Shown: positions 22,731 through 39,735 of the stretch, in pieces
Layout: every line of letters starts with the position of its first letter
Numbering within the stretch: position 1 is the stretch's first letter
NCBI GenBank assembly: GCA_003153375.1
Contig: PLYM01000273.1
Span: 1 to 43,014, forward strand
DNA length: 43,014 nucleotides
Direction of reading: 5' to 3'
Source: Planctomycetaceae bacterium
Lineage (GTDB): Bacteria > Planctomycetota > Planctomycetia > Pirellulales > PALSA-1355
Notes under the pieces: model-generated
What the model was told of the DNA's origin: nothing
What the model saw: the letters and a program-made list of their open reading frames with translations, nothing else
Databases searched by the model: none
Program-made: the position numbers and the translations under genes

Positions 22731-22804
22731 GGGGGTGTAGCTCAGTTGGTTAGAGCGCTAGCCTGTCACGCTAGAGGCCGAGGGTTCGAGTCCCTTCACC
22801 CTCG
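22731..22804 (+). tRNA. tRNA-Asp (anticodon GTC)
   Basis: A 74-base cloverleaf: acceptor GGGGGTG pairs with CACCCTC (one G-U), D-arm GCTC/GAGC, anticodon stem CTAGC/GCTAG with loop CTGTCAC and anticodon GTC at 22765-22767, T-arm GAGGG/CCCTT with loop TTCGAGT, and discriminator G73 as expected for tRNA-Asp. CCA is not encoded. The 3' part from the anticodon loop is the attachment site of the tandem elements downstream. Confidence 0.97.
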
Positions 22805-22817
22805 CTCATTCTAAGTC
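22763..22817 (+). repeat. attachment-site repeat, left copy (in tRNA-Asp)
   Basis: 55 bases identical to 38345-38399. It begins at the first base of the anticodon loop and covers the 3' part of the tRNA plus 13 bases beyond it. Similarity, no longer exact, continues into the integrase leader. This is the att core used by element 1. Confidence 0.92.
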
Positions 22818-22842
22818 TCGCCGAAATCTTCACTTAGATTAC

Positions 22843-22859
22843 CTGCCAACGGTTGGCAG
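22843..22859 (+). terminator. hairpin after tRNA-Asp, left copy
   Basis: Arms CTGCCAAC and GTTGGCAG around a single base, followed by GC-rich sequence and a short T-run (TGTTTT). The matching hairpin at 38425-38441 keeps pairing although the arm bases differ, which supports a selected structure. It would end tRNA transcription or attenuate read-through into the integrase gene. Confidence 0.6.
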
Positions 22860-22881
22860 CAGCGGCCTGTTTTCTGGGAAA

Positions 22882-22899
22882 GCGCGTATTTACACGCGC
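22882..22899 (+). promoter_or_regulatory. inverted repeat in integrase-1 leader
   Basis: GCGCGT and ACGCGC arms with a 6-base spacer, 23 bases before the integrase start codon. A different but longer palindrome sits at the same place before integrase 2, so this is a likely operator or leader structure. Confidence 0.5.
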
Positions 22900-22922
22900 G
22901 GCTCTTAGAGGAAAGGTTCGCT

Positions 22923-24173
22923 ATGTCAACCATCCGCAAGCGCAGGGTCCCCGGTTACTGCTTCCACAAGGCCTCGGGGCAGGCCATCGTCCGACTGTGG
23001 GGCAAGTTTCTGTACCTGGGAGAATACGGGTCGCCGGAAAGCTACGCGAAGTACGCTCAACTGATCGCCGATTGGAGCAACGGTCAGCCAGAGCCCGCGA
23101 GGCCGCAGGGCGAGATCACGATCATCGAACTGGTCGCAGCCTGGCGACGCCACGCCCTGCGCCACTATCAAAAGGACGGCCAGCCAACAGGCGAGGTCTG
23201 CAACTTCGACCACGCAGCCAGGCCGCTGGTCGCGCTGTGCGGCGACGAGCTGGCCAGGAACTTCGGCCCGCTCAAGCTCCAAACCGTCCGCAACATGATG
23301 ATCACCGGTTTCACCAGCCGGCTCGGAACGCCGGTCAACGGAGTCTGCCGAGGCCAGGTCAACGCCCGGATCGGCCGCATCAAACGGATCTTTCGCTGGG
23401 CTGAGTCTCAAGAATTGGTACCGGCCAGCCTATCCCACGCGCTAGCAACCGTGAGGGGACTACAACGCGGCCGAACCGAGGCCCGCGAAACCGAGCCCAT
23501 TGGCCCGGTCAACGATGAACACGTCGAGGCCACCCTGCCCTACCTGCCGGCGATCGTCGCCGACATGGTCCGCGTGCAACGGCTCACCGGCTGCCGGCCG
23601 GGGGAAATCTGCTTGATGCGCCCGCGCGACGTGGACCGCCGGGCCACGCCCTGGCAGTATCGCCCGGCCAGTCACAAGACCCAGCACCACGGCCGGGCCC
23701 GCGTCATTTTCATCGGCCCAAGGGCGCAGCAGATCCTGCTGCCGTACCTGCTGCGCGATGGGGACGCCCGCTGCTTCACGCCGACCGAGAGCGAACGCAA
23801 ACGGAAGGAGCACTTGCGGGAGCATCGGAAAACTCCGGTCCAACCGTCCCAAGTCGATCGAAGTAAAAGCCGCCCGCGGGTACGGCCTACGGATCGCTAT
23901 ACAAAGGACGTCTACGCGCGAGCCGTCCGCCGCGCCTGCGACGCAGCCAACGAAAAAGCCATGCAGGACAATGGGACCGCAAGAGAAGAGAAACGAGCAG
24001 TCCCCCGATGGACACCGAACCAGCTGCGCCACACGGCCGCTACGGAGATCCGCCGACGCTTCGGCCTGGAGGCCGCGCAAGTTTGCCTGGGGCACTCGGC
24101 CGCGAACGTCACCCAGATCTATGCCGAGCGCGACAGCTCGCTCGGTTTGGAAGTCATGCGACAAATAGGCTAG
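22923..24173 (+). CDS. tyrosine integrase of element 1
   Basis: A 416-residue tyrosine recombinase expected to insert and excise element 1 at tRNA-Asp. The N-terminal part is a DNA-arm/core-binding region, and the catalytic part has R225 (TGCRPGEIC), R369 with the following H370 (NQLRHTAAT), H391 (LGHSAA) and the nucleophile Y400 (TQIYAERD). The usual first His of the HxxR box is Asn. The same change occurs in integrase 2 (38509-39735), to which it is clearly related along its whole length. An AGGAAAGG site precedes ATG 22923. It is read in the tRNA direction and lies 118 bases from it. Confidence 0.93.
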   Translation: MSTIRKRRVPGYCFHKASGQAIVRLWGKFLYLGEYGSPESYAKYAQLIADWSNGQPEPARPQGEITIIELVAAWRRHALRHYQKDGQPTGEVCNFDHAARPLVALCGDELARNFGPLKLQTVRNMMITGFTSRLGTPVNGVCRGQVNARIGRIKRIFRWAESQELVPASLSHALATVRGLQRGRTEARETEPIGPVNDEHVEATLPYLPAIVADMVRVQRLTGCRPGEICLMRPRDVDRRATPWQYRPASHKTQHHGRARVIFIGPRAQQILLPYLLRDGDARCFTPTESERKRKEHLREHRKTPVQPSQVDRSKSRPRVRPTDRYTKDVYARAVRRACDAANEKAMQDNGTAREEKRAVPRWTPNQLRHTAATEIRRRFGLEAAQVCLGHSAANVTQIYAERDSSLGLEVMRQIG

Positions 24174-24282
24174 ATTCTCAACTGCCCGGGGCGCGGCCGT
24201 ACACCGCTCACAACCGGCTGCCACGCGTTTCATTCACCTGGACGCGCGGCGGCCTGGTTGGCCCGGCTAACAAAGGTGAACC

Positions 24283-26646
24283 ATGGAACCGCGGAACGTT
24301 GGCGCCGAGCAACCGCGCCAGACCCTCGAGAGTTTCGCCGCCGAGTTCGTGATCGAGCGCGGCTACCTGCCTGACTCGGCCAAGCCGATCCACGCCGCCG
24401 CGAGGGTTTTCTCGAGGTTTTGTCGCGAGATACGCCGACCAGGCGAACCTGCGGACCTGTCCGAGAACCGAATCAACAACTGCCTCGCGATGTTGCACAA
24501 GGCGCAATACGCCGCGGCAACCGTGAACAGTCGCCGCGACGCGCTAGTGGAACTCGGAAACCAGGCCGCAAAATGCGGGCTTCTCGTCGCTCCGCTCGAC
24601 AACCAGAAAATCATCCTCTTCGCGGAGCGAGCTGACTCCCCGGCCGATACCTTTCGATCGAGCCGCCGCTGGGCGCCACCCCGTGCACGAGGGAAATTCC
24701 GCCACCAAGACGGGAAGAGAGTGAGCCCTCCGGATGGACGTGCCTACCGAGCAACCGTTGTTCTCGATTCGGCCGCGGTCGCTCGAGTGCTGAAGCGCGA
24801 TCGCTGGCGCCCCGCCATGAAAAAGCCGCCGAGCGCCAGCGCCCTCGAGGCCCTGGTCGCCGCGTATTTGAAGAAACACCGTCTCGGGGACGACAGCTCG
24901 CCAAACCTCCGGAAAGCGGCGCGAGCATTCGACAAGTGGCACCAGGCGAAACACGGAACGCCGTTCGAACTGCGGGACTTTTCCGAGGCGCTGGCCAACG
25001 ATTTCGTCGCCTCGCTGCGCAACGAAGGCCTCGCAAGCGCCACGCTGGCCGAGAGGCAAAGCTGCATTGTCAGGCTCTACTATTACGCCGCAAGTAGACG
25101 ACTCGTCGGCCAACCAGACCGAAACAAAATCGAGTGGGTGCAGCGCCCGCAACCCGCGGGAAACAGGATCGAGCCGGAAGGCTGGGAACGGTTGCTGGCA
25201 GTCGTCGACCGCGAAGAAACGGGGCCAGCTGCGCCAGGGTTCGGCCCCCTCGAGCATCGTATTTTGCTGCTCATCATTCGTGATACGGGCTTGCCGCTGG
25301 CCACGTGCACACAACTTAAAGCCGCGGATGTGGACGAAGACGGCTGGATCAGCCCCGAGGCGACCAGGAGCAAGGCAACGCAAAGGATACCCCACCGCCT
25401 GCGCGCCGACACAATGGACGCCATTCGCCGACGCGGAACAGGATCCAGCGACCGCCTCGCGCCGTGGCCCTACACCGAGGAAGTCTACCGCAAACGCCTG
25501 AAACTCTTCTTCAAGCTCGCAGGCCTGCCGTGCAGCGACCCCATTAGAACGCTCCGCCGAAGCTCGACGAGCATCCTCGAAACCGTCGGGGCACAGTTGG
25601 GCCACGCCTATTACGGGTCGCGACGAGCTGCCAACTCCCACGGCCTCCGGTACATCGACCCCAGCATCGCGCAGCGCCGGCCCCAAACGTCCAACGCGGA
25701 CCGAAATCGATACTGCCACCAGCAGCGTGAGATAGGGAAAACGTTCGAAGAAATTCGAATCGCCGCCAATGAAAGCCCGGACGGATGGGAAAAACTTAAA
25801 ACGCCGCAGGATGTGATGAACGCCATCGAGCGCCACCTCGCCCGGATGCGGATCAAACCGGCCACGCAAGCCAAGGCGCGACGCAACGCCGAAAACCAAA
25901 TTAACGATCGGCCACGCCGCGCAACTTCTGTCCCCGTGGCCTTCCGCCAGGAAGAGATCGAAAGCTTGCTCGCAGCGATCCGCATCTTTCACCCGAAACG
26001 ACCGCCTCCCGGTTGGGACAACCGCCACGACATGGCACTGGTGCTGTTTATCCTCGATACCGGATTCGGGCTCGGGAAGTGCCTGGCGCTAACGAAAGCG
26101 AACCTCAGCGACAAGGTGCTAACGTTCGAAGGACGCGCCCGAGAACTCAGCCCGGACACGCTAGACGCGATCCAGGCCGCGCCTTCGCCGCCAACCGAGC
26201 CGCGGCTCTTCGCCTGGCCGAGATCTCAAAACGCTTACCTGCACCGGCTGAGAATACTCGGTCGCGAATCCGGGCTGCCGGTCTCGGGCCTCATCCAGAA
26301 ATTGCGCCGGACCTGGGCCACCAGCCTAGTGGGGCGCGAGTACCGAGCCCCGCGCCAACCCGCGAAGGCCGCCCAGGGCCAGACCAAAGATCCACGCCGC
26401 GAGTTTTGCTACTTGGAGTGCACGAAAGCACGGCCGGACCCCTATAAACAGATCATCAAGCTCTGCGCCGAGAAACTGCCGGGATCCAAACCCATCAAAA
26501 GCCTCAGCGGGGTCGCATTCTTAGCCAATCAGTTCGCCGAGGAAAACGGACTCGATCCAGTGCCACCGCGCCAACGACCGCGCGCGAAAAAACGCCCCGC
26601 TCGGGGCCGTTCTCAAAATCGCTCGTCAAAAGCGCGCCTCAGCTGA
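24283..26646 (+). CDS. double tyrosine-recombinase-fold protein with degenerate active sites
   Basis: A 787-residue protein. Two core-binding-like helical regions (about 12-105 and 185-290) precede two recombinase-catalytic-like regions (about 300-470 and 545-700). Region 1 keeps TLRRSS and a tyrosine Y457 (GLRYIDPS), but the first arginine of the TGLR box is replaced (DTGLPLATC) and the box-II His is missing. Region 2 has DTGFGLGKC and LIQKLRRTWATSL, again lacking the first Arg and the His, with no clear tyrosine. It probably binds DNA as an internal pseudo-dimer and does not recombine it. The tail is very basic (RQRPRAKKRPARGR). An AAAGGTG site precedes the ATG. It shares an SAM-like domain style with the 28944-30944 protein. 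Confidence 0.7.
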   Translation: MEPRNVGAEQPRQTLESFAAEFVIERGYLPDSAKPIHAAARVFSRFCREIRRPGEPADLSENRINNCLAMLHKAQYAAATVNSRRDALVELGNQAAKCGLLVAPLDNQKIILFAERADSPADTFRSSRRWAPPRARGKFRHQDGKRVSPPDGRAYRATVVLDSAAVARVLKRDRWRPAMKKPPSASALEALVAAYLKKHRLGDDSSPNLRKAARAFDKWHQAKHGTPFELRDFSEALANDFVASLRNEGLASATLAERQSCIVRLYYYAASRRLVGQPDRNKIEWVQRPQPAGNRIEPEGWERLLAVVDREETGPAAPGFGPLEHRILLLIIRDTGLPLATCTQLKAADVDEDGWISPEATRSKATQRIPHRLRADTMDAIRRRGTGSSDRLAPWPYTEEVYRKRLKLFFKLAGLPCSDPIRTLRRSSTSILETVGAQLGHAYYGSRRAANSHGLRYIDPSIAQRRPQTSNADRNRYCHQQREIGKTFEEIRIAANESPDGWEKLKTPQDVMNAIERHLARMRIKPATQAKARRNAENQINDRPRRATSVPVAFRQEEIESLLAAIRIFHPKRPPPGWDNRHDMALVLFILDTGFGLGKCLALTKANLSDKVLTFEGRARELSPDTLDAIQAAPSPPTEPRLFAWPRSQNAYLHRLRILGRESGLPVSGLIQKLRRTWATSLVGREYRAPRQPAKAAQGQTKDPRREFCYLECTKARPDPYKQIIKLCAEKLPGSKPIKSLSGVAFLANQFAEENGLDPVPPRQRPRAKKRPARGRSQNRSSKARLS

Positions 26647-26791
26647 CGCGCGCAGGGCCCCACGAAGACACTGCCGCCAACGGACTTACGGCACTGTAAC
26701 TCTGCAACATTTCCAACGGTCTCCCCCTCGCACACATTCAATGCGTGTGTCGAACGCTCGCTTTCGCTTGCAAGCCACAGGGGAACTATCG

Positions 26792-27169
26792 ATGGCCAAG
26801 AAAATAAGCACCGCGCCCGGTGCGCAAGAGCCGGACGCAACGAGAAAGCTAGCCGGGGAGAAGCTATACCGGCTACACAAGCTCGCCAAAATGGTGCCTT
26901 CCTGCAGGAGCGGCAGGCCCCGCTCCGTCAGTACGATTTTTCGTTGGATGACGGATGGCCTACGGGGCTCGGCCGGCGAACTCGTGTTCCTCGAATGCGT
27001 CCGCCGAGGCACCGTCCGGATGTCGTCTCGAGAGGCGCTCGGTCGTTTCTACGAAGCCTTGAACGCGCAGGACACCGCGAAACGGCCAGCCGCACCTGAA
27101 ACAACGCGCGAGCGTAAGGCGCGAACGCAGCGAGCCGAGTCCGAGCTCGCACACACGCCGAACTGCTAG
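26792..27169 (+). CDS. DUF1580-type small DNA-binding protein
   Basis: A 125-residue protein. The core (LHKLAKMVPSCRSGRPRS, VSTIFRWMTDGLRGSAGELV, LECVRRGTVRMSSREALGRF) matches the pattern of DUF1580, a planctomycete family resembling excisionase/MerR-type helix-turn-helix proteins. Both ends are low complexity and charged. ATG 26792 has an AGGGGA site; an upstream ATG at 26741 in frame lacks one. In this position an excisionase or regulator role is plausible, but it is only inferred. Confidence 0.75.
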   Translation: MAKKISTAPGAQEPDATRKLAGEKLYRLHKLAKMVPSCRSGRPRSVSTIFRWMTDGLRGSAGELVFLECVRRGTVRMSSREALGRFYEALNAQDTAKRPAAPETTRERKARTQRAESELAHTPNC

Positions 27170-27386
27170 GGCACCCAAACAAACCGCGTCGCGGCCAATA
27201 AAAAAGGCCGCGCGGGCCGGCAAGCCCGATCGCGGCAAAGAAAGCAACCCATGCATCTTCGCTTCGGCCCTCAGCCGAATCAAGCCCCCCAGCAAACGGC
27301 ACAGGATGTGCGCGCCGCCGGGGGCTTCGTGATCGGGCAAACTGGCTGCCAAGAATCCCAGCCTCAAACCCGATGGAGTCGACGTC

Positions 27387-28403
27387 ATGGATGAAAAAAG
27401 CGCTGAGTGGACGGTCAACAATTGGCCCGGACTGCGAGGCGAGGCAAAGCGCTCGTTTCACCTGTGCTGGAAGAAAAACGGCCACCAGCCTGGTGAACTT
27501 TGGATCAGCGACATCGAACTTATGGAGCTCAACGGGACCAGCGGTCGAGCCGTAAGAAGATACCTCGAAACCTTGTCCCAAAAACGCCTCATCAGAATTC
27601 TCGAACGCTTGCCGGGGCGAACGCGAATCTACCTATGCGAGCCGCGCGAGGTATGCAATGACGGGAAGCAGGAAGCGGAGCGCCCGCTGCTTGAACCTTT
27701 CGCCGAACTGGCCGGAGCGAGCAACCGTCGCGCCGACAGCGCAACCTACCGGGCGGTTCTGGCGACAGATGTGACGCCAGAACCGCCGCGCCTTAGGGAT
27801 CCTTTGGGGTATGGGTATGCGCATCGACCTTTACCCTTGGACCCTTTGGAACCTTTGTTACCTGAAGGTAGGGGCCCGCAAGCATTACCGGAACCGGCGC
27901 CAGATGCAGCGCCGCATCCGACCGACAAAGCGTCGCCGCCTGCGCAGCGATCCAGCCAGCAGCCCGACCGCGAAACAGCAGCGCTCGCAGACATCGAGCG
28001 CCGAGCGAGAGCAGGCGCAGCCGCGGGGTTTCGACCGAGCCAGCCAGCCGCCGCCCCGCCACGCGTGGACTTCCGCGGGGCCGCCGCACGAGCCGAGTAC
28101 GCCTTGCCAGGCAACCCGGCGCGCTCCGCGAGAATCGAGCAAATCGTGGAAAGGATCCGCACCAGAGTCGCCGATCCGGAAATCCGCGAAACGCCGATGC
28201 TTCGATTCGCCACGGCCATCGTCGACAACCTGGTGCCAGAGCGCGAGCTCGACTCGGTGCTCCTGAGCATTGATCGGGCCCGCCGCGACAAAACGCTCAT
28301 GGGCTCGCCCTGGTGGTATTTCGTCGGGGCCGGCCGAAAAATCTTCAAGCGACACGGCATAGAAGATCGCTGGCCTACCGAGGCACCGGAGGGACGGAAG
28401 TGA
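27387..28403 (+). CDS. winged-helix DNA-binding protein, possibly replication or regulatory
   Basis: A 338-residue protein. Residues about 10-90 form a winged helix-turn-helix of the replication-initiator/DnaD-like kind (GELWISDIELMELNGTSGRA, RRYLETLSQKRLIRIL, LPGRTRIYLCEP). A long Pro/Ala-rich disordered linker (about 140-230) leads to a C-terminal helical domain (about 245-330, RIEQIVERIRTRVADPEIRE, SPWWYFVGAGRKIFKRHG). Such wHTH-linker-helical layouts occur in phage replication proteins. It is the first gene of a four-gene set with 4-base overlaps; its stop overlaps the GTG start of the next gene. Confidence 0.7.
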   Translation: MDEKSAEWTVNNWPGLRGEAKRSFHLCWKKNGHQPGELWISDIELMELNGTSGRAVRRYLETLSQKRLIRILERLPGRTRIYLCEPREVCNDGKQEAERPLLEPFAELAGASNRRADSATYRAVLATDVTPEPPRLRDPLGYGYAHRPLPLDPLEPLLPEGRGPQALPEPAPDAAPHPTDKASPPAQRSSQQPDRETAALADIERRARAGAAAGFRPSQPAAAPPRVDFRGAAARAEYALPGNPARSARIEQIVERIRTRVADPEIRETPMLRFATAIVDNLVPERELDSVLLSIDRARRDKTLMGSPWWYFVGAGRKIFKRHGIEDRWPTEAPEGRK

Positions 28404-28621: not shown

Positions 28622-28947
28622 CATCGACAGCGCCACCAAAATCACCGAGGAGACGAGGAAGCGCCAAGCCGCTGACGTTCACCCGCCGCAAACGGATCCG
28701 CGGACGGAACGCCCGAACGCACCGCGAGTGGCAGGACGAGACAGGCAGCTACCTCATCATCTGGCGCAAACAAGCCTACGGGGTCAGCCTGCCGCCCCAA
28801 TTTTTCGCGCTCACTATGCCGCCCGGCTTCAGCTCCGAGGAGTACCGGATCACGCTCGACGGTCGACCGCCGAAGCCATTTCGAACATTCAACGCCGCCG
28901 CAACGGCCTGCCAGAATCACGCAGACCAAACGGGGGCCGCACAATGA
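28618..28947 (+). CDS. small basic hypothetical protein
   Basis: A 109-residue protein with a strongly basic N-terminus (PKSPRRRGSAKPLTFTRRKR) and a compact C-terminal part rich in aromatic and beta-forming residues (GSYLIIWRKQAYGVSLPPQF, PFRTFNAAATACQNHADQ). No family is recognised. An AAAGGA-type ribosome site precedes ATG 28618, which overlaps the upstream stop, and the TGA overlaps the ATG of the recombinase downstream. Confidence 0.7.
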   Translation: MTSTAPPKSPRRRGSAKPLTFTRRKRIRGRNARTHREWQDETGSYLIIWRKQAYGVSLPPQFFALTMPPGFSSEEYRITLDGRPPKPFRTFNAAATACQNHADQTGAAQ

Positions 28948-30944
28948 TCGCTCGATCGACTCAGCTGAGCGAAGCCCACTCCCCCGCGGCAATTTCGCTT
29001 GCCGATTTTTTCGAACGCTGTTTCGCACCCGAACGACTCAAGGGCGCGAGCAGCCCTCGCCGTTACACCCACGCGATCTTTTGGCTCGGCAAGGCCCTCG
29101 GACGCGCGCCATCGTTGGCCGACGTGACCACGAACAACGTGCGCGCCGTCGAACGGCTCATCCGCAAGAACGGCTTCAGCGCGGAGCGGGCCCGAAGCCT
29201 GAAAACTCGCCTGTTCGCGATTAGTCGCTTTGCCTCGCGGCTGGGCCTGGTGGAAACCTGCGCGCTAGCGCCAGCCGTTCGCCAGGCCGCAGTGCCCGCG
29301 TTTCTCAAGACGACACCCGCGCCGGGAACGCTGGCCGCCACCCTCGAGCGCTTCAATGCCGAGGGGGCGGAGTCAAAGCACCCGGCCGCAATCGCCGCCC
29401 GCGCGGCCGCGGTTCGCGCCTTCGACGTGTTCCTGGGCCGCTACGCCACACCCGCGGAGCTGACCACGGAGCAGCTCACGAAGTTTCGTCACGAAATCCT
29501 GTCTATGGGGCGGGCTGAGTCGCTGCACCGCGTGTACTGCAAGCGGCTCAAATCAATCGGCCGAATGCTCACACCCGAGCAATTCCCGCTGCCGCAGACG
29601 ACGAGCAGAAAACTACCGCCGCCAGAGCACGGAACAATCCGCGAGTTTTACGAAGAGACATACCGGCCGGAGCGGCTGATCGCGTGCAGCGCTAAAACAG
29701 CGCGAGACTACCGTTACACGTTCCGGTTACTTTTCGAGTTCGCTGGCCGAGACCTTACGACGGCCGAGCTATCGGACAGGATCGCGGGCGACTTTCTAAC
29801 CTGGCTGCTCGCCGGGGGGATGAGCGCCATCACGGTGAACGGTCACCGTCGCAGGCTGTTCGCGCCATGGAGGCTCGCGGCAGAGCGCGGGCAAACCGCT
29901 AGCGCCCCGAGAGTGCGCAAGATCCCCGAGTCGACTGATGCTCCCGATGCGTGGAACGCGGAGGAGGTGGCGCGGATCATCCAGGCTCCGCTGAGCATTC
30001 AATGGCAACGGCCGATCGACGGCATCCCGGCCGGCGCATGGTGGCACGCGTTCTTGTTGGTGGGTTATTACACCGCGCTACGCCGTGGGTCGCTGCTCAA
30101 ACTCCGCCGCCAGGATGTGAACCTGGAAAACGGCTGGATCAACGTCGGGGGCGACAAAATGAAAAACCGCCGCGGCCAGCGCCTCCGCATCGGCCCCGAT
30201 GCGGTCGCCGCCGTCGCCGCAATCTGGGGCCCTGAACGCGAGCTGCTATTTCCATGGCCGCTCCTCCGAAACGCGGCCTTTAACCATTTCCGCCGAATCG
30301 TCGCCGCAGCCGGAGTAGCGCCGAGCACGCGCAAAGCGATGTCAGGGATCCATAAGCTCCGCAGGACCGTGGCCACGATCACAACCGTTAAGCGAGGCCT
30401 CGCCGCGGCCGCTGCGCTGCTCGGGCATAGCGGAACCGAAATCACGAAGCGGTATGTCGACCCGAGCAAGGAGGCAGGCCAAGACGCTACGGAATACCTG
30501 CCCCAAATCTCGCGCGGCTCGAGGCCACAGACCCCGCCCGCCGCTCTCAATCCCGCCGAAGCGCTTCTCGAGGCCAGGGCGCTTCTAGAGCGCGGCAACG
30601 CCACGGCCGCGGCCATGACAGCGAGAGCCGCGCTAGAACGCTGGCTCAAAATCGAGAGCCAGCGCCACGGCCTACGACCGCCGAAGGGTTTCGGGGGACT
30701 GGCCGGCCGAGCCCGCCACCTGGTGCGCGCGGGCCGCCTGGTCGAATCGACCTACCGCCAAATCCGCCGCGCCGCCAAGGCCGGCAATCGCGCCGCTCAC
30801 GGCCACCAGGTCGCCCCCGGCAAGGTTGCCGCAATGGTCGAGCTCGTCGAGCAGATCTTCTCTGCGAGCGTGTCCGAGACGCCGGGCACAGCCAGTATTT
30901 CGCGCGGCATAAGCGGCACCGAGAGAACGAAGCGCGGAAGCTGA
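28944..30944 (+). CDS. tyrosine recombinase with repeated core-binding domains and C-terminal DUF4145/HEPN-like domain
   Basis: A 666-residue protein. Three SAM-like core-binding domains can be seen (about 17-105, 130-215, 230-320), then a tyrosine-recombinase catalytic domain with R380 (TALRRGSLL), box-II H470 and R473 (IHKLRRTVAT), H495 (LLGHSGTE) and nucleophile Y504 (KRYVDPSKE), so it looks active. A C-terminal helical domain (about 535-645) has the NPAEALLEARALLERGN opening, ARAALERWLKIE and the GNRAAHGH motif typical of DUF4145/HEPN-like domains. It is the last gene of the coupled operon. It is not the att integrase and may act in replication, resolution or copy control. Confidence 0.8.
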   Translation: MIARSTQLSEAHSPAAISLADFFERCFAPERLKGASSPRRYTHAIFWLGKALGRAPSLADVTTNNVRAVERLIRKNGFSAERARSLKTRLFAISRFASRLGLVETCALAPAVRQAAVPAFLKTTPAPGTLAATLERFNAEGAESKHPAAIAARAAAVRAFDVFLGRYATPAELTTEQLTKFRHEILSMGRAESLHRVYCKRLKSIGRMLTPEQFPLPQTTSRKLPPPEHGTIREFYEETYRPERLIACSAKTARDYRYTFRLLFEFAGRDLTTAELSDRIAGDFLTWLLAGGMSAITVNGHRRRLFAPWRLAAERGQTASAPRVRKIPESTDAPDAWNAEEVARIIQAPLSIQWQRPIDGIPAGAWWHAFLLVGYYTALRRGSLLKLRRQDVNLENGWINVGGDKMKNRRGQRLRIGPDAVAAVAAIWGPERELLFPWPLLRNAAFNHFRRIVAAAGVAPSTRKAMSGIHKLRRTVATITTVKRGLAAAAALLGHSGTEITKRYVDPSKEAGQDATEYLPQISRGSRPQTPPAALNPAEALLEARALLERGNATAAAMTARAALERWLKIESQRHGLRPPKGFGGLAGRARHLVRAGRLVESTYRQIRRAAKAGNRAAHGHQVAPGKVAAMVELVEQIFSASVSETPGTASISRGISGTERTKRGS

Positions 30945-31000
30945 GCAGGCTCGCGCACCAAGAATGGAAACCGGAAAACTCAAACCGAGGCGACGGGATT

Positions 31001-31014
31001 ATTTCGCGCGAAAT
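31001..31014. promoter_or_regulatory. perfect palindrome resembling Noc/parS sites, upstream of the ParB-like gene
   Basis: ATTTCGCGCGAAAT is a perfect 14-base palindrome 50 bases before the ParB-like start codon. It has the same outer frame as the Noc site ATTTCCCGGGAAAT and the parS core TTTCACGTGAAA, with other central bases. A related one-mismatch copy is at 37288. Likely bound by the ParB-like protein or a regulator. Confidence 0.5.
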
Positions 31015-31064
31015 TGCATCGCCGCCGCCCCAACCATCACCACCGTTAGAAGAGAGGTTCGACC

Positions 31065-32027
31065 ATGGCCACCGTAGCCCGAAACCAACATAGCGATCGC
31101 CGCCAGCTCGATCGCGACCAGCTCCGCCAGATCCCAATCGAGTTGATCGATCCCAACCCGAACAACCCTCGCGAAGATTGGGAGACCCAGCAAATCGACC
31201 GTTTGATCCCCAGCGTTCGGCGCTTCGGGCTGATCGAGCCGGCCATCGTGCGAGCGCTCATCACCGAAGCGGGCGAGCGCTTCGAGCTGATCGCCGGCGA
31301 GCGACGGTTCCGAGCCGCGAAGGCCGCAGGGGAAAAGACCATCAGCTGCATCGTGCGAAACATCTCGGGCGAAGACGCGCTGGCGCAAATGCTAATTGAA
31401 AACCTCGAGCGCAAGGCCCTCTCGCCGCTCGAGAAAGCTCGATTCCTCAAAAGGCTCTGCACGCCCTGCAGGCTTGGAGGCGCCGGCCTCAAGCAGAAAG
31501 ACGCCGCGCGATTGTTCGGCAAAACGCAGCCGTGGGCCGCCAGCCTATTGGGCCTCTTGGAACTGCCCGAGGCCTGGCAACAAAGGTTAGCGCGCGGAGA
31601 GATCGAGCTGACGCAGGCAAGATCGCTGATTGCCCACCGCGACCGCCCAGAACTCTTGAAGGCCATCGAACTCGACATGAAACGTAACGCCTTCGCCTGG
31701 AGGACGCAGGTAGACTTCGACCGCAGTTTAAAACTGCTGCTGGCCGATCAGACAGCGGGCAGCGTCTCGCCGCCACGCAGCCCTCGAGCCGCCAAATCGG
31801 TCGCACCCGGTCCGCGGCAGCCGAGCCGCGAGGCCAACCAGGCTGTCGCCGGCCGATCCCGCCAGGCTAGCGCCGAGATCGCCGGCGATCGTTCGGAGCC
31901 AAGCGCGCCGGCCGCCGAAGACGTCGCCGCGGTGTGCGCAGCCATCGCGAGACTTTCAGACCAGGAGCTCAGCCAGGTCGAGGCCGCCGCCAGAGACCGC
32001 CGAGAGCAATTGCGCAAGCAACGCTGA
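31065..32027 (+). CDS. ParB-like partition/transcription protein
   Basis: A 320-residue ParB-family protein. The N-terminal ParB/Srx CTPase domain has IPIELIDPNPNNPR, the box FELIAGERRFRAAKAAG (GERRFRA is the CTP-binding box II) and QMLIENLERKALSPLEKA. The HTH region follows (GLKQKDAARLFGKTQPWAAS, LLGLLELPEAW, GEIELTQARSLIA). The C-terminal third is disordered with a short final helix. No ParA ATPase gene is visible in the element, so it is an orphan, as in Noc-like or KorB-like regulators. An AGAGAGG site precedes the ATG. Confidence 0.88.
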   Translation: MATVARNQHSDRRQLDRDQLRQIPIELIDPNPNNPREDWETQQIDRLIPSVRRFGLIEPAIVRALITEAGERFELIAGERRFRAAKAAGEKTISCIVRNISGEDALAQMLIENLERKALSPLEKARFLKRLCTPCRLGGAGLKQKDAARLFGKTQPWAASLLGLLELPEAWQQRLARGEIELTQARSLIAHRDRPELLKAIELDMKRNAFAWRTQVDFDRSLKLLLADQTAGSVSPPRSPRAAKSVAPGPRQPSREANQAVAGRSRQASAEIAGDRSEPSAPAAEDVAAVCAAIARLSDQELSQVEAAARDRREQLRKQR

Positions 32028-33574: not shown

Positions 33575-35755
33575 ATGGGCGCAAATGAAATCAGAGCGGG
33601 CCGCGCCGCCGTCGAGATCAGCGGCAAGGACAAGCTCAGCGGATCGTTGACCCGCATCTCCGCCCGCTTCAAGGGCTGGGCCGAGAGCATCAAGGCCACG
33701 GGCAGCAAATTGGCCACCAGCAAGCTCGGCCTGGGCTCTATCCTCGCCGAGGCCTTCACCACCACCGGGATCGCCGGCGCTGTGAAGGCGTACGGCTCCG
33801 CGGGCTCAACACTGCTCACGCTCTCGAAAAAAACCGGGGTCACCGTCGAGCAGCTCTCCAAACTCAAATACGCCGCCGCCGCAACGGGCGGAGAATTCGA
33901 AGACGTCGAGGTCGGGCTGCGCGGGATGGACAAGTTTATGGGCAAGGTCGCCAAGGGGGGCGAAGAGGCCGCGGACACGCTGCGCCGGCTTGGCCTCAAT
34001 GCCGGGATCCTCAAGTCCCTGAGCCCCGACCAGCTCTTCGATACGCTCGCCAAAGCAGTCGGGCGCGTCTCAGATCCCACACAACGCGCCGCCCTCGCGA
34101 TGCAAGTGTTTGGCAAAGGCGGAGCAAACTTGCTCCCGGTAATCAACAATCTCGCCTCCCTGCAGAAGGAGGCCGAGGAACTCGGCGTGGTGATGAGCAC
34201 CGAGGCCGCAGAAAAGGCCCACGGGATGGAGAAGGCGCTCACGCGCCTCGGCATCGGGGCGAAGGGGATATTTTCCGCGATCGGCTCGATCTTCGTGGAG
34301 GACGTCACCCGACTCGCCGAGCGTATTCTGCGCGTAATAATCACCGTGCGCGACTGGATCCGCGAAAACAAAGCGCTCGTCGGCACGGTACTGCGCACGG
34401 CGGCTGCCGTGGCCGCCGTCGGGTCCGCCGTGGTCGCTACGGGGCTACTTTTTGGAGTCGCCGCCAGCGCCTTTGGAGGATTAGCGAGCGCGGCCGCGTT
34501 CGTGGGCGCCGGCCTGGGAGTGGTGACCACCGTAGCCGGGGCCATCTTATCACCGATCGGCCTGGTGATCGGCGCCGTGGTCGGCCTCGCCGGTTACTTC
34601 TCCTACGCCAGCGGGGCCGCCGGCGCCGCCTTCGAAATGATCCGCTCCGCCCTGGGCCCGCTCGCGGAGGACGTCAAAAGCGCCTTCGAAGCCATCCGCA
34701 ACGCGATGGCCGCCGGGGACCTCGGCGCCGCCGCGAAAGTACTCTGGGCCCTGATCCGCGTCGAGTGGCTTGCGGGCACGCAATGGATCTCCGCCAAGTG
34801 GCAGGCCTTCACCGATTTTTTCGTCGACACCTGGCGCGCGGCCGTGTACGGCACCGCGTCGATTCTGACCTCCGCCTGGTCGGGCCTGCAGGCCATTTGG
34901 GACAACCTCACAACGGGGGTACTGGCCGGCTGGGAAATGGTCGCAAACGGGATCGAAGCGAGCTGGGAATTTGTCATTCAGAGCCTACGCAAGGGACTCT
35001 CGGTGGTCATCTTCGCCATCGAGACCATTGAGGACACCTTCCGCAACGTCATCAATGCAGTTGCGGACATCTGGGATGCGATGATTGTCGGCATCAAAAA
35101 GGGGATCGACTCTATCGGCGCTGCGCTGGGCTTCGGCAGCTCCGCGGACACGATCGACTTTAACGCCGACCGCCGCAAGAAAGATCGCCACAAGGACGAC
35201 AAGGGCGACCGGCGCACAGAGTTGGCCGACCGCAACGCGAAGATCGACGCCGAGACCGAAGCCCAGGGGGCCGACCGCCGCGGCCGCCATGGGGCGGCCA
35301 TCGCCAACTTGGCCACAGGCAGCGCCAACAGTCAAACAGAACTCCAACAGCAGAACGCCGCCGCCCAGAAAAACCTCGCCGACGCCGCGGCCGCGGAGAA
35401 GCAGGCGCGCGACGCCGGTCGCGATGCCGCCAACCAGGGCGATCGGGACGCCGCCGACAAAGCGCTCAAGGAAGCCCAGGACGCGTTCGCCGCGGCCAAG
35501 GATTTGGCCATGGCTCTCACGCCGATCGAGGGCGGCAAAGTGGACGACGGGGACGAGGAAGACCCAGAAAAGAAAAACAAGGAGCTCGAGGCCCAGGGAA
35601 AGAGCTCGGGAACGTTCAGCGCCTCCGCCGCCGTGCGCATGGGGGGCGGCGACGACTACGCCCAGCGCACCATGGTCGCGACCGAGGGGACCTACCAAGA
35701 AATGAAACAACGCCGCAAGCAGGGACAGGGCGGGGGAGAACCGGTCTACCGCTAA
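33575..35755 (+). CDS. phage-type tail tape-measure-like protein
   Basis: A 726-residue protein. The N-terminal part (about 70-215, LSKKTGVTVEQLSKLKYAAA, ALAMQVFGKGGANLLPVINN) is the typical tape-measure core, followed by long hydrophobic stretches (about 270-345, AAVAAVGSAVVATGLLFGVA, GAILSPIGLVIGAVVGLAGY). Trp-rich repeats occur about 390-490. The C-terminus is charged and Ala-rich coiled coil (NAAAQKNLADAAAAEKQARD). In tailed phages this protein sets tail length and helps DNA entry. It is somewhat short and no other tail gene is adjacent except small neighbours. ATG 33575 lies behind a GGGCCC hairpin and lacks a clear ribosome site, so the start is uncertain. Confidence 0.82.
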   Translation: MGANEIRAGRAAVEISGKDKLSGSLTRISARFKGWAESIKATGSKLATSKLGLGSILAEAFTTTGIAGAVKAYGSAGSTLLTLSKKTGVTVEQLSKLKYAAAATGGEFEDVEVGLRGMDKFMGKVAKGGEEAADTLRRLGLNAGILKSLSPDQLFDTLAKAVGRVSDPTQRAALAMQVFGKGGANLLPVINNLASLQKEAEELGVVMSTEAAEKAHGMEKALTRLGIGAKGIFSAIGSIFVEDVTRLAERILRVIITVRDWIRENKALVGTVLRTAAAVAAVGSAVVATGLLFGVAASAFGGLASAAAFVGAGLGVVTTVAGAILSPIGLVIGAVVGLAGYFSYASGAAGAAFEMIRSALGPLAEDVKSAFEAIRNAMAAGDLGAAAKVLWALIRVEWLAGTQWISAKWQAFTDFFVDTWRAAVYGTASILTSAWSGLQAIWDNLTTGVLAGWEMVANGIEASWEFVIQSLRKGLSVVIFAIETIEDTFRNVINAVADIWDAMIVGIKKGIDSIGAALGFGSSADTIDFNADRRKKDRHKDDKGDRRTELADRNAKIDAETEAQGADRRGRHGAAIANLATGSANSQTELQQQNAAAQKNLADAAAAEKQARDAGRDAANQGDRDAADKALKEAQDAFAAAKDLAMALTPIEGGKVDDGDEEDPEKKNKELEAQGKSSGTFSASAAVRMGGGDDYAQRTMVATEGTYQEMKQRRKQGQGGGEPVYR

Positions 35756-36353: not shown

Positions 36354-36731
36354 ATGCGCAACCGTCGACGCAAGGGCGATGCCGACCAGCAGGATTGGTA
36401 CAGCGACTTCATCGGCGCAACCAGGCTCGAGAAACAACGCGATTGCGTGGACGCAGGTTTCCGGTCGTGTGCGCCACGCCAAGGCCGTGCGCAGAGCCCG
36501 CGAGCGCGACGCCGGAGCTCAAAAGAAGGCGCCCGACAGACAGCGGCCGCGTTCGTGGGCGCGGGCCTGGGCCTGGTGGCCACCGTGGCCGGGGCCATCA
36601 TCTCGCCGGTCGGCCTGGTGGCCGCGGCAACCGTCGGACTGGCAGGCTATTTCATCTACACCAGCGGAGCCGCTGGCGCCCGCCTTCGAAGCGCGCCGCC
36701 GAAACAAAAGGAGAGCGAACAATGCACATGA
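36354..36731 (+). pseudogene. remnant of a second tape-measure-like gene
   Basis: The open frame reads a basic, unrecognised N-terminus and then AAAFVGAGLGLVATVAGAI, SPVGLV and TVGLAGYFIYTSGAAGA. This closely repeats part of the tape-measure protein (its bases 34491-34636 match 36544-36690 at the DNA level). The copy has one extra base near its end that shifts the frame before FEA, after which it stops. It is a decayed fragment of a paralogue or a partial duplication, though the short frame could still be translated since its stop overlaps the next start. Confidence 0.65.
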
Positions 36732-38245: not shown

Positions 38246-38344
38246 GCAGCCGCAGACGCTAGACTCAACAAAAGCCCCAGAAAACTAGGGTCTTTTAATG
38301 AGTGCGTGAAAATCGGCCGAGAAATAGGGCACGGCCTGGATCGA

Positions 38345-38399
38345 CTGTCACGCTAGAGGCCGAGGGTTCGAGTCCCTTCACCCTCGCTCATTCTAAGTC
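38345..38399 (+). repeat. attachment-site repeat, second copy
   Basis: Exact copy of 22763-22817: the tRNA-Asp 3' part from the anticodon loop plus 13 bases. It is the right end of element 1 and the left end of element 2. The tRNA 5' half is absent. Confidence 0.92.
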
Positions 38400-38424
38400 C
38401 CGCCGAAATCTCACGTTAGATTAC

Positions 38425-38441
38425 CTGCCGGCGTTCGGCAG
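38425..38441 (+). terminator. hairpin after the tRNA fragment, second copy
   Basis: Arms CTGCCG and CGGCAG with loop GCGTT, then CGCGGCC and five T. It lies at the position corresponding to the hairpin at 22843-22859 with compensating arm differences. Here the T-run makes it a more canonical rho-independent terminator. Confidence 0.6.
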
Positions 38442-38461
38442 CGCGGCCTTTTTCACGAGTG

Positions 38462-38485
38462 GCAAAACGGTAATTACCGTTTTGC
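38462..38485. promoter_or_regulatory. perfect 24-base palindrome before integrase 2
   Basis: Half-site GCAAAACGGTAA followed at once by its exact reverse complement TTACCGTTTTGC. It lies 23 bases before the integrase-2 start codon, at the place where integrase 1 has a shorter inverted repeat. A repressor operator or mRNA hairpin controlling integrase is likely. Confidence 0.65.
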
Positions 38486-38508
38486 GCTTTTTCGAAAGGA
38501 ACCGCACA

Positions 38509-39735
38509 ATGCCCCGTCTCAAGAACGCCTTTCCCAAGTACCGCCATCACAAGGCCTCTGGCCAAGCAGTGGTCACGCTCAATGGCGCGGATATCTACCT
38601 TGGCCCTCATGGATCGACCGCCAGCCGGCTCGAGTATGACCGGTTGATCGGCGAGTGGCTTGCCGGCGGACGACGCCTGCCCGGAACATCAACAGGCGAC
38701 AACACGACCATCGTCGAGATGCTGGCGCGCTACTGGGTCTTCGCCACCCACCACTACCGGACCCGGGACGGTAAGCCATCCAAAGAGCTCGACAACATCC
38801 GATACGCGGTTCGACCGTTGAAACGACTCTACGGCCACACGCTGGTCAGTGAGTTCGGACCGCTGGCCCTGAAGGCCCTTCAACAGCGAATGGTCGACGA
38901 CGGCCTGTGTCGGCCGGTCGTCAATTCCCGGATTGGTAGGATCAAGCGCGTCTTTCGGTGGGCCGTATCTGAACAGGTCTGCCCGCCTGCGGTGTTGCAA
39001 GGCTTGGAATCCGTGATGGGACTCCAGCGGGGGCGAACGGATGCCAGGGAGCCGGGCCCGGTCCTGCCTGTTGATGAAGCAAAGGTCGATGCCACCCTGC
39101 CCCATCTTCCAGCGGTCGTGGCCGATATGGTCCGGTTTCAGCGGCTTGTGGGATGTCGACCCGGCGAAGTCTGCTGCCTCCGGCCGGCCGATGTCGACCG
39201 GTCCAAGGAAATTTGGAGCTATCGACCACTGAAACACAAGACCGAGCACCATGGTCACCAACGTGTGATCTTCATTGGTCCTCGAGCCCAGGGGATTCTG
39301 CGTCCATACCTGCTGAGAAATACCGAGTCGTTTTGTTTTTCTCCGGCCGAGAGCGAGCAGCAGCGGAAACGGGAAATGCGTGAGGAACGGAAAAGCAAGG
39401 TCCAGCCCTCGCAATTCGATCGAAGCACGCGACGGCCTGAGGTCAAGCCGGGCAAACGCTACCGGAAGGACGCCTATGCGAGGGCGATTCGACGTGGCTG
39501 CGACAAGGCTTTCCCTACGCCAGAAGGGGTGACGGAGGAAGAGCAGGCAGAGTGGCAGAAGGATCACCGCTGGTCGCCGAACCAGCTAAGGCATGCGGCC
39601 GCGACTGAGATTCGTCAGCGATTCGGCCTCGAGGCGGCGCAAGTCGTGTTGGGCCATAGTCGAGCCGATGTCACGCAAGTTTATGCAGAGCGGGATAATG
39701 GGTTAGCCGCGAAAATCATGAGCGAAGTGGGATGA
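38509..39735 (+). CDS. tyrosine integrase of element 2
   Basis: A 408-residue tyrosine recombinase closely related to the element-1 integrase (shared blocks HKASGQA, NSRIGRIKRVFRW, GLQRGRTDARE, RLVGCRPGEVC, NQLRHAAATEIRQRFGLEAA, VTQVYAERD). Catalytic residues are the Arg of GCRPGE, the Arg of NQLRH, the His of LGHS and nucleophile Y392. The first box-II His is Asn, as in its partner. ATG 38509 has AAAGGA before it; the frame is open upstream through the att repeat, which is not coding. It should use the same tRNA-Asp site. Confidence 0.93.
   Translation: MPRLKNAFPKYRHHKASGQAVVTLNGADIYLGPHGSTASRLEYDRLIGEWLAGGRRLPGTSTGDNTTIVEMLARYWVFATHHYRTRDGKPSKELDNIRYAVRPLKRLYGHTLVSEFGPLALKALQQRMVDDGLCRPVVNSRIGRIKRVFRWAVSEQVCPPAVLQGLESVMGLQRGRTDAREPGPVLPVDEAKVDATLPHLPAVVADMVRFQRLVGCRPGEVCCLRPADVDRSKEIWSYRPLKHKTEHHGHQRVIFIGPRAQGILRPYLLRNTESFCFSPAESEQQRKREMREERKSKVQPSQFDRSTRRPEVKPGKRYRKDAYARAIRRGCDKAFPTPEGVTEEEQAEWQKDHRWSPNQLRHAAATEIRQRFGLEAAQVVLGHSRADVTQVYAERDNGLAAKIMSEVG

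Follow-up and report, generated by a model that had tools for sequence, protein, structure and literature searches.

The 787-aa protein encoded at positions 24283-26646 of the window (the whole stretch of DNA analysed, 43,014 nucleotides from a Planctomycetaceae bacterium) contains two tyrosine-recombinase catalytic folds in tandem on a single chain, as confirmed by sequence profiles and AlphaFold2 models. Judging by the residues at their active sites, both folds are apparently unable to cut DNA. The gene lies within an element inserted at a tRNA-Asp gene and sits beside the tRNA integrase, in the seat that related elements give to a companion recombinase.

The 3' part of tRNA-Asp and the bases that follow it are repeated over 55 bp further along the contig, and the repeat therefore defines an element of 15.58 kb. 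The main features are:

22731-22805, + strand: tRNA-Asp (gtc), the integration target (ARAGORN; Rfam RF00005)
22763-22817, + strand: att core at the tRNA end, 55 bp exact, beyond which identity goes on with mismatches
22923-24173, + strand: tyrosine integrase, 416 aa, presumed integrase of the element (Pfam PF00589, 5.1e-9; PHROG integrase)
24283-26646, + strand: ORF of the 787-aa double pseudo-recombinase, position confirmed
28728-30944, + strand: 738-aa companion-type recombinase with three core-binding domains, a complete catalytic domain (R, K, H, R, H, Y) and a weak DUF4145 C-terminus
31065-32027, + strand: ParB-like protein, adjoining the 738-aa recombinase, as it does at the related loci L063 and L064
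38345-38399, + strand: att core at the far end, an exact 55-bp copy 15,582 bp away

The 787-aa gene begins 109 bp after the integrase gene on the same strand. No terminator-like site was found on the + strand in the gap between the two, and no sigma-70-like promoters were found in 22800-27500. Gene order in the element runs from the integrase and the 787-aa gene through a weak DUF1580-like gene, a 338-aa gene and a small zinc-ribbon-like ORF to the 738-aa recombinase, ParB and a tape-measure-like gene. The last of these (33575-35755; PHROG 8462, 5.5e-34) is the only tail gene recognised, and a second copy of it, degraded and incomplete, lies 2 kb on, at 36354-36731 (80% over 138 nt). A recombinase with three core-binding domains followed by ParB is seen in three genomes (window 28728-32027, L063 1433-4591 and L064 9377-12505), and this pair is possibly a resolution and segregation module. 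A second integrase (window 38302-39735) directly follows the far att copy, and a further att copy is present on another contig of the same genome (G000 contig C22, 2586-2654), beside a recombinase fragment; several elements therefore appear to have used tRNA-Asp serially. The tRNA-Asp contig of a same-genus genome ends about 180 bp past the tRNA.

Codon-position GC in the 787-aa ORF is that of a gene (0.65/0.51/0.73), with a GC3 of 0.75 in each catalytic part, and is gene-like throughout, spacer and tail excepted. Upstream of the ATG, the stretch AAAGGTGA would be a plausible ribosome-binding stretch. A PHROGs search assigned the protein to an integrase family (3.8e-11). Because a single core-binding domain was all that Pfam recognised at gathering level (PF02899, residues 210-272, 6.9e-5), separate core-binding and catalytic family profiles were built from 12 distant relatives, with the query left out. 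In ORF residue numbers, which are the protein numbers plus one, the core-binding profile matches residues 3-112 (6e-5) and 174-292 (2e-9), and the catalytic profile residues 318-461 (4e-17) and 552-702 (3e-15). The domain order is core-binding, core-binding, catalytic, catalytic, and the chain is laid out as follows:

24286-24615, + strand: core-binding domain A, with no catalytic domain of its own (profile)
24799-25155, + strand: core-binding domain B (profile; Pfam PF02899)
25231-25662, + strand: catalytic fold B (profile, residue alignment, structure)
25690-25860, + strand: helical linker segment between the catalytic folds
25933-26385, + strand: catalytic fold C (profile, residue alignment, structure)
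26560-26643, + strand: basic tail of 28 residues, net charge +11

Both kinds of domain are duplicated within the chain: folds B and C share 28% identity (E 5e-12), and core-binding domains A and B share 31% (E 3e-7). The linker resembles a 153-aa ORF in another planctomycete (L029 1420-1878; 39% identity, E 1.3e-5, z 14.6) and is perhaps an unnamed small domain. The helical segments that follow folds B and C were considered as copies of one another, and this was rejected (pairwise z -0.6). A sequence search of solved structures with the 787-aa chain returned a chance-level match only, and a search for defence systems gave no match for the chain and one weak match for ParB.

An initial annotation, drawn from the sequence alone, had proposed two tandem recombinase-like folds, added core-binding-like regions and a basic tail. 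The tail is real, and each half of the chain matches tyrosine-recombinase core-binding or catalytic profiles from which the query was excluded. The core-binding regions hold up in part: two of them score by profile, but only two, and by the same search none was detected for fold C, which is preceded by a different helical segment.

Structure prediction agrees with the profiles. A full-length AlphaFold2 model was made from 25 alignment rows, combining window and related-locus sequences, and has pLDDT mostly above 84 for residues 190-450, while its confidence over the N-terminal core-binding domain is moderate. This model did poorly over the C-terminal half, which no alignment rows cover, and a second model of that half was therefore used; with 27 rows, its pLDDT is mostly above 88 for about residues 555-684. 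Among the matches listed by Foldseek for the full model, 50 of 50 are tyrosine recombinases. VIA-align, whose lists carry weight for the matches in them but not for the families missing from them, aligns the first fold with XerH (Z 16.1, rmsd 3.8 over 265 residues) and residues 290-466 with the catalytic domain of HP1 integrase (Z 15.4, rmsd 2.6 over 150 residues). Residues 86-254 of the C-half model (about 550-718 of the protein) match XerA (Z 16.8, rmsd 2.5 over 155 residues), and the second fold also matches XerH (Z 15.1, rmsd 2.8 over 158 residues). Further matches to Tn1549 Int, lambda Int and Cre, together with the profiles, place both folds in the tyrosine recombinase superfamily, rather than in the unrelated fold that would have counted against the annotation. 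Given its independent profile match and its structural match to XerA, fold C as a chance resemblance was rejected.

The annotation had also held that each fold lacks the first catalytic arginine (Arg I) and the box-II histidine, and the alignments bear this out residue by residue. In fold B, P338 stands at Arg I and R422 at the box-II His, while K364, R425 (Arg II) and the tyrosine Y457 are retained. In fold C, G596 and Q672 occupy these two positions, the lysine hairpin is deleted and R675 (Arg II) is retained; the candidate nucleophile Y710 aligns with the tyrosine in one alignment only. The significance of the losses was gauged in 91 catalytic domains of relatives, a set that leaves out identical domains, five redundant loci (L083, L084, L086, L090 and L091), the window domains and the first domains of two-headed proteins. 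Arg I is arginine in 90 of the 90 domains aligned there, one of the 91 being gapped. Arg II is conserved in 89 of 91 (2 gaps), His III in 84 of 91 (4 gaps, 3 Asn) and the nucleophilic tyrosine in 82 of 91 (9 gaps). The box-II position, with one gap, is histidine in just 44 of 90 and otherwise mostly Lys, Arg or Gln. Since relatives so often replace this histidine, its absence was rejected as proof of inactivity by itself, and of the residue losses only that of Arg I argues for inactivity.

Apart from itself, the 787-aa protein has partial matches only, 23-40% identical to it. They were recorded in 13 of 397 genomes of the class, 7 of 57 genomes of relatives, 16 of 396 of the order and 3 of 236 of the phylum, where each count includes the window's own genome and the sets overlap. 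The wider family is large: with a cut-off of E 1e-10, the 738-aa protein is matched in 46 of 196 genomes of the order. Searches for relatives found none in phage and plasmid records (0 matches), and those of viral contigs were unproductive, whether run with the 787-aa chain or the 738-aa alignment; the relatives at 30 viral loci are all single-headed.

Around family members one arrangement recurs. The order tRNA, integrase, companion(s) is present in 15 of 36 loci; in 4 of 36 there is a tRNA with no integrase between, and in 17 of 36 no tRNA lies in the available piece, many of these pieces being short. The 36 loci were picked for the companion and not for tRNAs, 34 of them coming from two hand-picked sets. 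In the 311 kb of sequence that lie no more than 4 kb from a companion, tRNA genes number 18; the 154 kb farther off have 2. Eight of the ORFs on the tRNA side were checked by Pfam as integrases, that of L070 scoring just below the gathering level. Elements of this kind are found at tRNA-Leu, -Val, -Lys, -Gly and other tRNAs (L065, L067, L068, L069, L082, L132 and others); next to the integrase they encode between one and three overlapping companion recombinases, which have as many as four core-binding domains. The 787-aa gene sits in this companion seat beside the tRNA integrase, and the earlier suggestion that it belongs to an element with an active recombinase is upheld, the integrase being its neighbour. 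Companions in the seat mostly look catalytically complete, and the seat alone is therefore no proof of a non-catalytic role.

That no standard family has this layout, as had been stated, is too strong. Profile searches revealed six relatives with two catalytic domains in one chain (L065, L070, L071, L072, L073 and L085), though in another order: core-binding, dead, core-binding, live, usually with the dead domain first and the live one second. At Arg I their first catalytic domains read S, S, S, K, R or P, and in the profile alignment these domains stop short of His III and the tyrosine. The second domains keep their active-site residues, except that the box-II His is Gln in L065 and L070. Two catalytic domains were seen in none of 14 additional loci, which had been picked in part for their long ORFs. 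Large ORFs at L072 4542-6404 and L073 5733-7622, whose first residues read like serine recombinases, lie near two-headed recombinases, as do possible phage head genes, which suggests prophages.

A FastTree phylogeny of 99 domains, each with at least 110 aligned positions and with the same five redundant loci dropped, groups the first domains of L071, L072, L073 and L085 in one clade (0.96), while those of L070 and L065 fall elsewhere. Folds B and C of the window are sisters (support 0.85), a pairing that long-branch attraction could have produced, and few of the deep nodes are well supported. The scattering of the first domains, taken with the sister relation of the window folds, suggests that two-headed chains arose independently several times, with modest support from the tree. 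In pairs among L072, L073 and L085 the dead and live domains are about equally conserved (55 versus 59, 49 versus 49 and 52 versus 48%), which argues that selection maintains the dead domain in some members of the family. When L071 is one of the pair, the dead domain is less conserved than the live one in all three cases (34 versus 52, 29 versus 54 and 27 versus 47%).

The explanation we prefer, tentatively and at a little below an even chance, is by analogy with GinC and Tfp: the 787-aa protein would be a non-cutting, DNA-binding companion of the integrase. It would be a recombination-dead member of a family of planctomycete tyrosine recombinases with multiple core-binding domains, which ride as companions beside a tRNA integrase. 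The catalytic domain of an ancestral companion would have been duplicated within one gene, and both copies would then have lost Arg I. Co-produced with the integrase, the protein may still clamp DNA through its core-binding domains and catalytic folds, and at the element ends it could provide non-cutting subunits that aid assembly or tip the direction of the integrase reaction; DNA binding, the partnership with the integrase and an effect on recombination are what we infer for it. The initial annotation had suggested that the protein could bridge DNA, set directionality, or compete with or dock to the active recombinases of the element. Against the companion explanation, no binding site of the protein was identified, and no full-length match but the protein itself is found in the overlapping sets of 397, 57, 396 and 236 genomes. 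A broader and more doubtful conjecture is that in planctomycete mobile elements evolution has time and again joined a dead catalytic domain to a live one in a single recombinase chain (here the second is dead as well), the dead domain acting as a covalent pseudo-subunit that sets which half-sites can be cut. Tyrosine recombinases act as tetramers, with two subunits cutting at a time. If the conjecture were true, half-of-the-sites control would be hard-wired in the polypeptide rather than arising from tetramer dynamics.

A role as a transcription repressor or lysogeny-type switch that binds operators, like MrpR/YopR of SP-beta or SroF of phi3T, is a live alternative because these solved phage repressors share the fold, and it is possible, if on the doubtful side. 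Each half of the chain matches them structurally (8a0a, Z 10.8 for each; 9rd5, Z 12.3 and 12.6), although active recombinases rank above them. MrpR has lost Arg I and the box-II His, keeps Lys and Tyr, which is the pattern of fold B, and represses without recombining (PMC10516654). The tape-measure-like gene and ParB would fit a phage-like switch. MrpR, however, has about 320 aa with one core-binding and one catalytic domain, whereas the 787-aa chain has two of each, and a repeat scan of the element, a weak one in which only the largest families are listed and the sequence is GC-rich, gave no clear intergenic family of operator-like repeats. The MrpR comparison also weighs on a further reading, that the protein still cleaves or exchanges DNA through an unusual active site, a neighbouring arginine or a site completed in trans: fold B does retain Lys, Arg II and Tyr, but a similar residue set is inactive in MrpR, and the invariance of Arg I among the aligned comparison domains makes such activity highly improbable.

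The damage to both active sites, the orphaned core-binding domain and the missing ortholog could also be read as decay, the protein being an ex-recombinase with no present function, and the same element does hold a degraded tape-measure fragment. Decay is nevertheless unlikely, as 788 codons have stayed open with gene-like composition outside the spacer and tail and a ribosome-binding stretch in front, and both catalytic parts fold confidently in the models. The dead domains of relatives are also as conserved as the live ones in three pairs, if less so in the three with L071. It is more improbable still that the 787-aa protein pairs with the 738-aa recombinase as its non-cutting subunits, in dimer resolution or in segregation with ParB. 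In favour of such a pairing, the 738-aa protein keeps all its active-site residues (RKHRHY) and adjoins ParB in the window and at L063 and L064; but its gene is 2 kb from the 787-aa gene with three genes between, and around the 738-like genes of L063 and L064 no counterpart of the 787-aa gene was detected (at L063 only 2.5 kb past ParB, on one side).

Compared with known systems, the preferred companion reading has clear precedents: recombinase-fold proteins that are catalytically dead are known, so the kind of protein is not new. GinC lacks the first Arg and is part of a four-gene operon essential for GInt recombination (PMC5385486), and Tfp of the strand-biased circularizing elements (SEs) lacks the RHRY residues (PMC10214605), as given in the accessible parts of these papers. 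Like the 787-aa protein, both have the recombinase fold without catalytic residues and are encoded beside active tyrosine recombinases of the same element. They appear to differ from it, in a comparison by description only, in that those parts describe no second catalytic domain, and in their fixed operons with two active recombinases and GinD or Srap; in the window the adjacent gene is a tRNA integrase, 109 bp upstream, and one complete recombinase lies 2 kb on. MrpR/YopR and SroF have the fold and, in the case of MrpR, the losses of fold B, but they are single core-binding and catalytic units and proven or named repressors, whereas no operator repeats were identified among the largest repeat families of the element.

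The six two-headed relatives are like the 787-aa protein in having two catalytic folds per chain, one of them degenerate, but they keep the C-terminal domain intact and alternate core-binding with catalytic domains, while in the window both catalytic folds are dead and follow two core-binding domains. RIT elements and Tn554-type sets have several separate, active tyrosine recombinases side by side in one element; here, in contrast, a dedicated tRNA integrase is present and has as its neighbour a single chain whose two folds are both dead. A literature search, mostly outside subscription journals and including the accessible part of PMC8138268, found no description of a chain with two dead folds, of planctomycete dead-plus-live chains, or of a tRNA, integrase, companion class of accessories. 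The apparent novelties are a single chain in which both catalytic folds are dead, and the recurrence of dead-plus-live chains in planctomycete elements. The way in which tRNA, integrase and companion recur in this order suggests that integrative elements of planctomycetes have an accessory class not described before. Such chains could supply ready-made dominant regulators of recombination, and two fused catalytic folds, of which the inactive one is kept by selection in relatives, would make the asymmetry of cutting in the tetramer directly testable.
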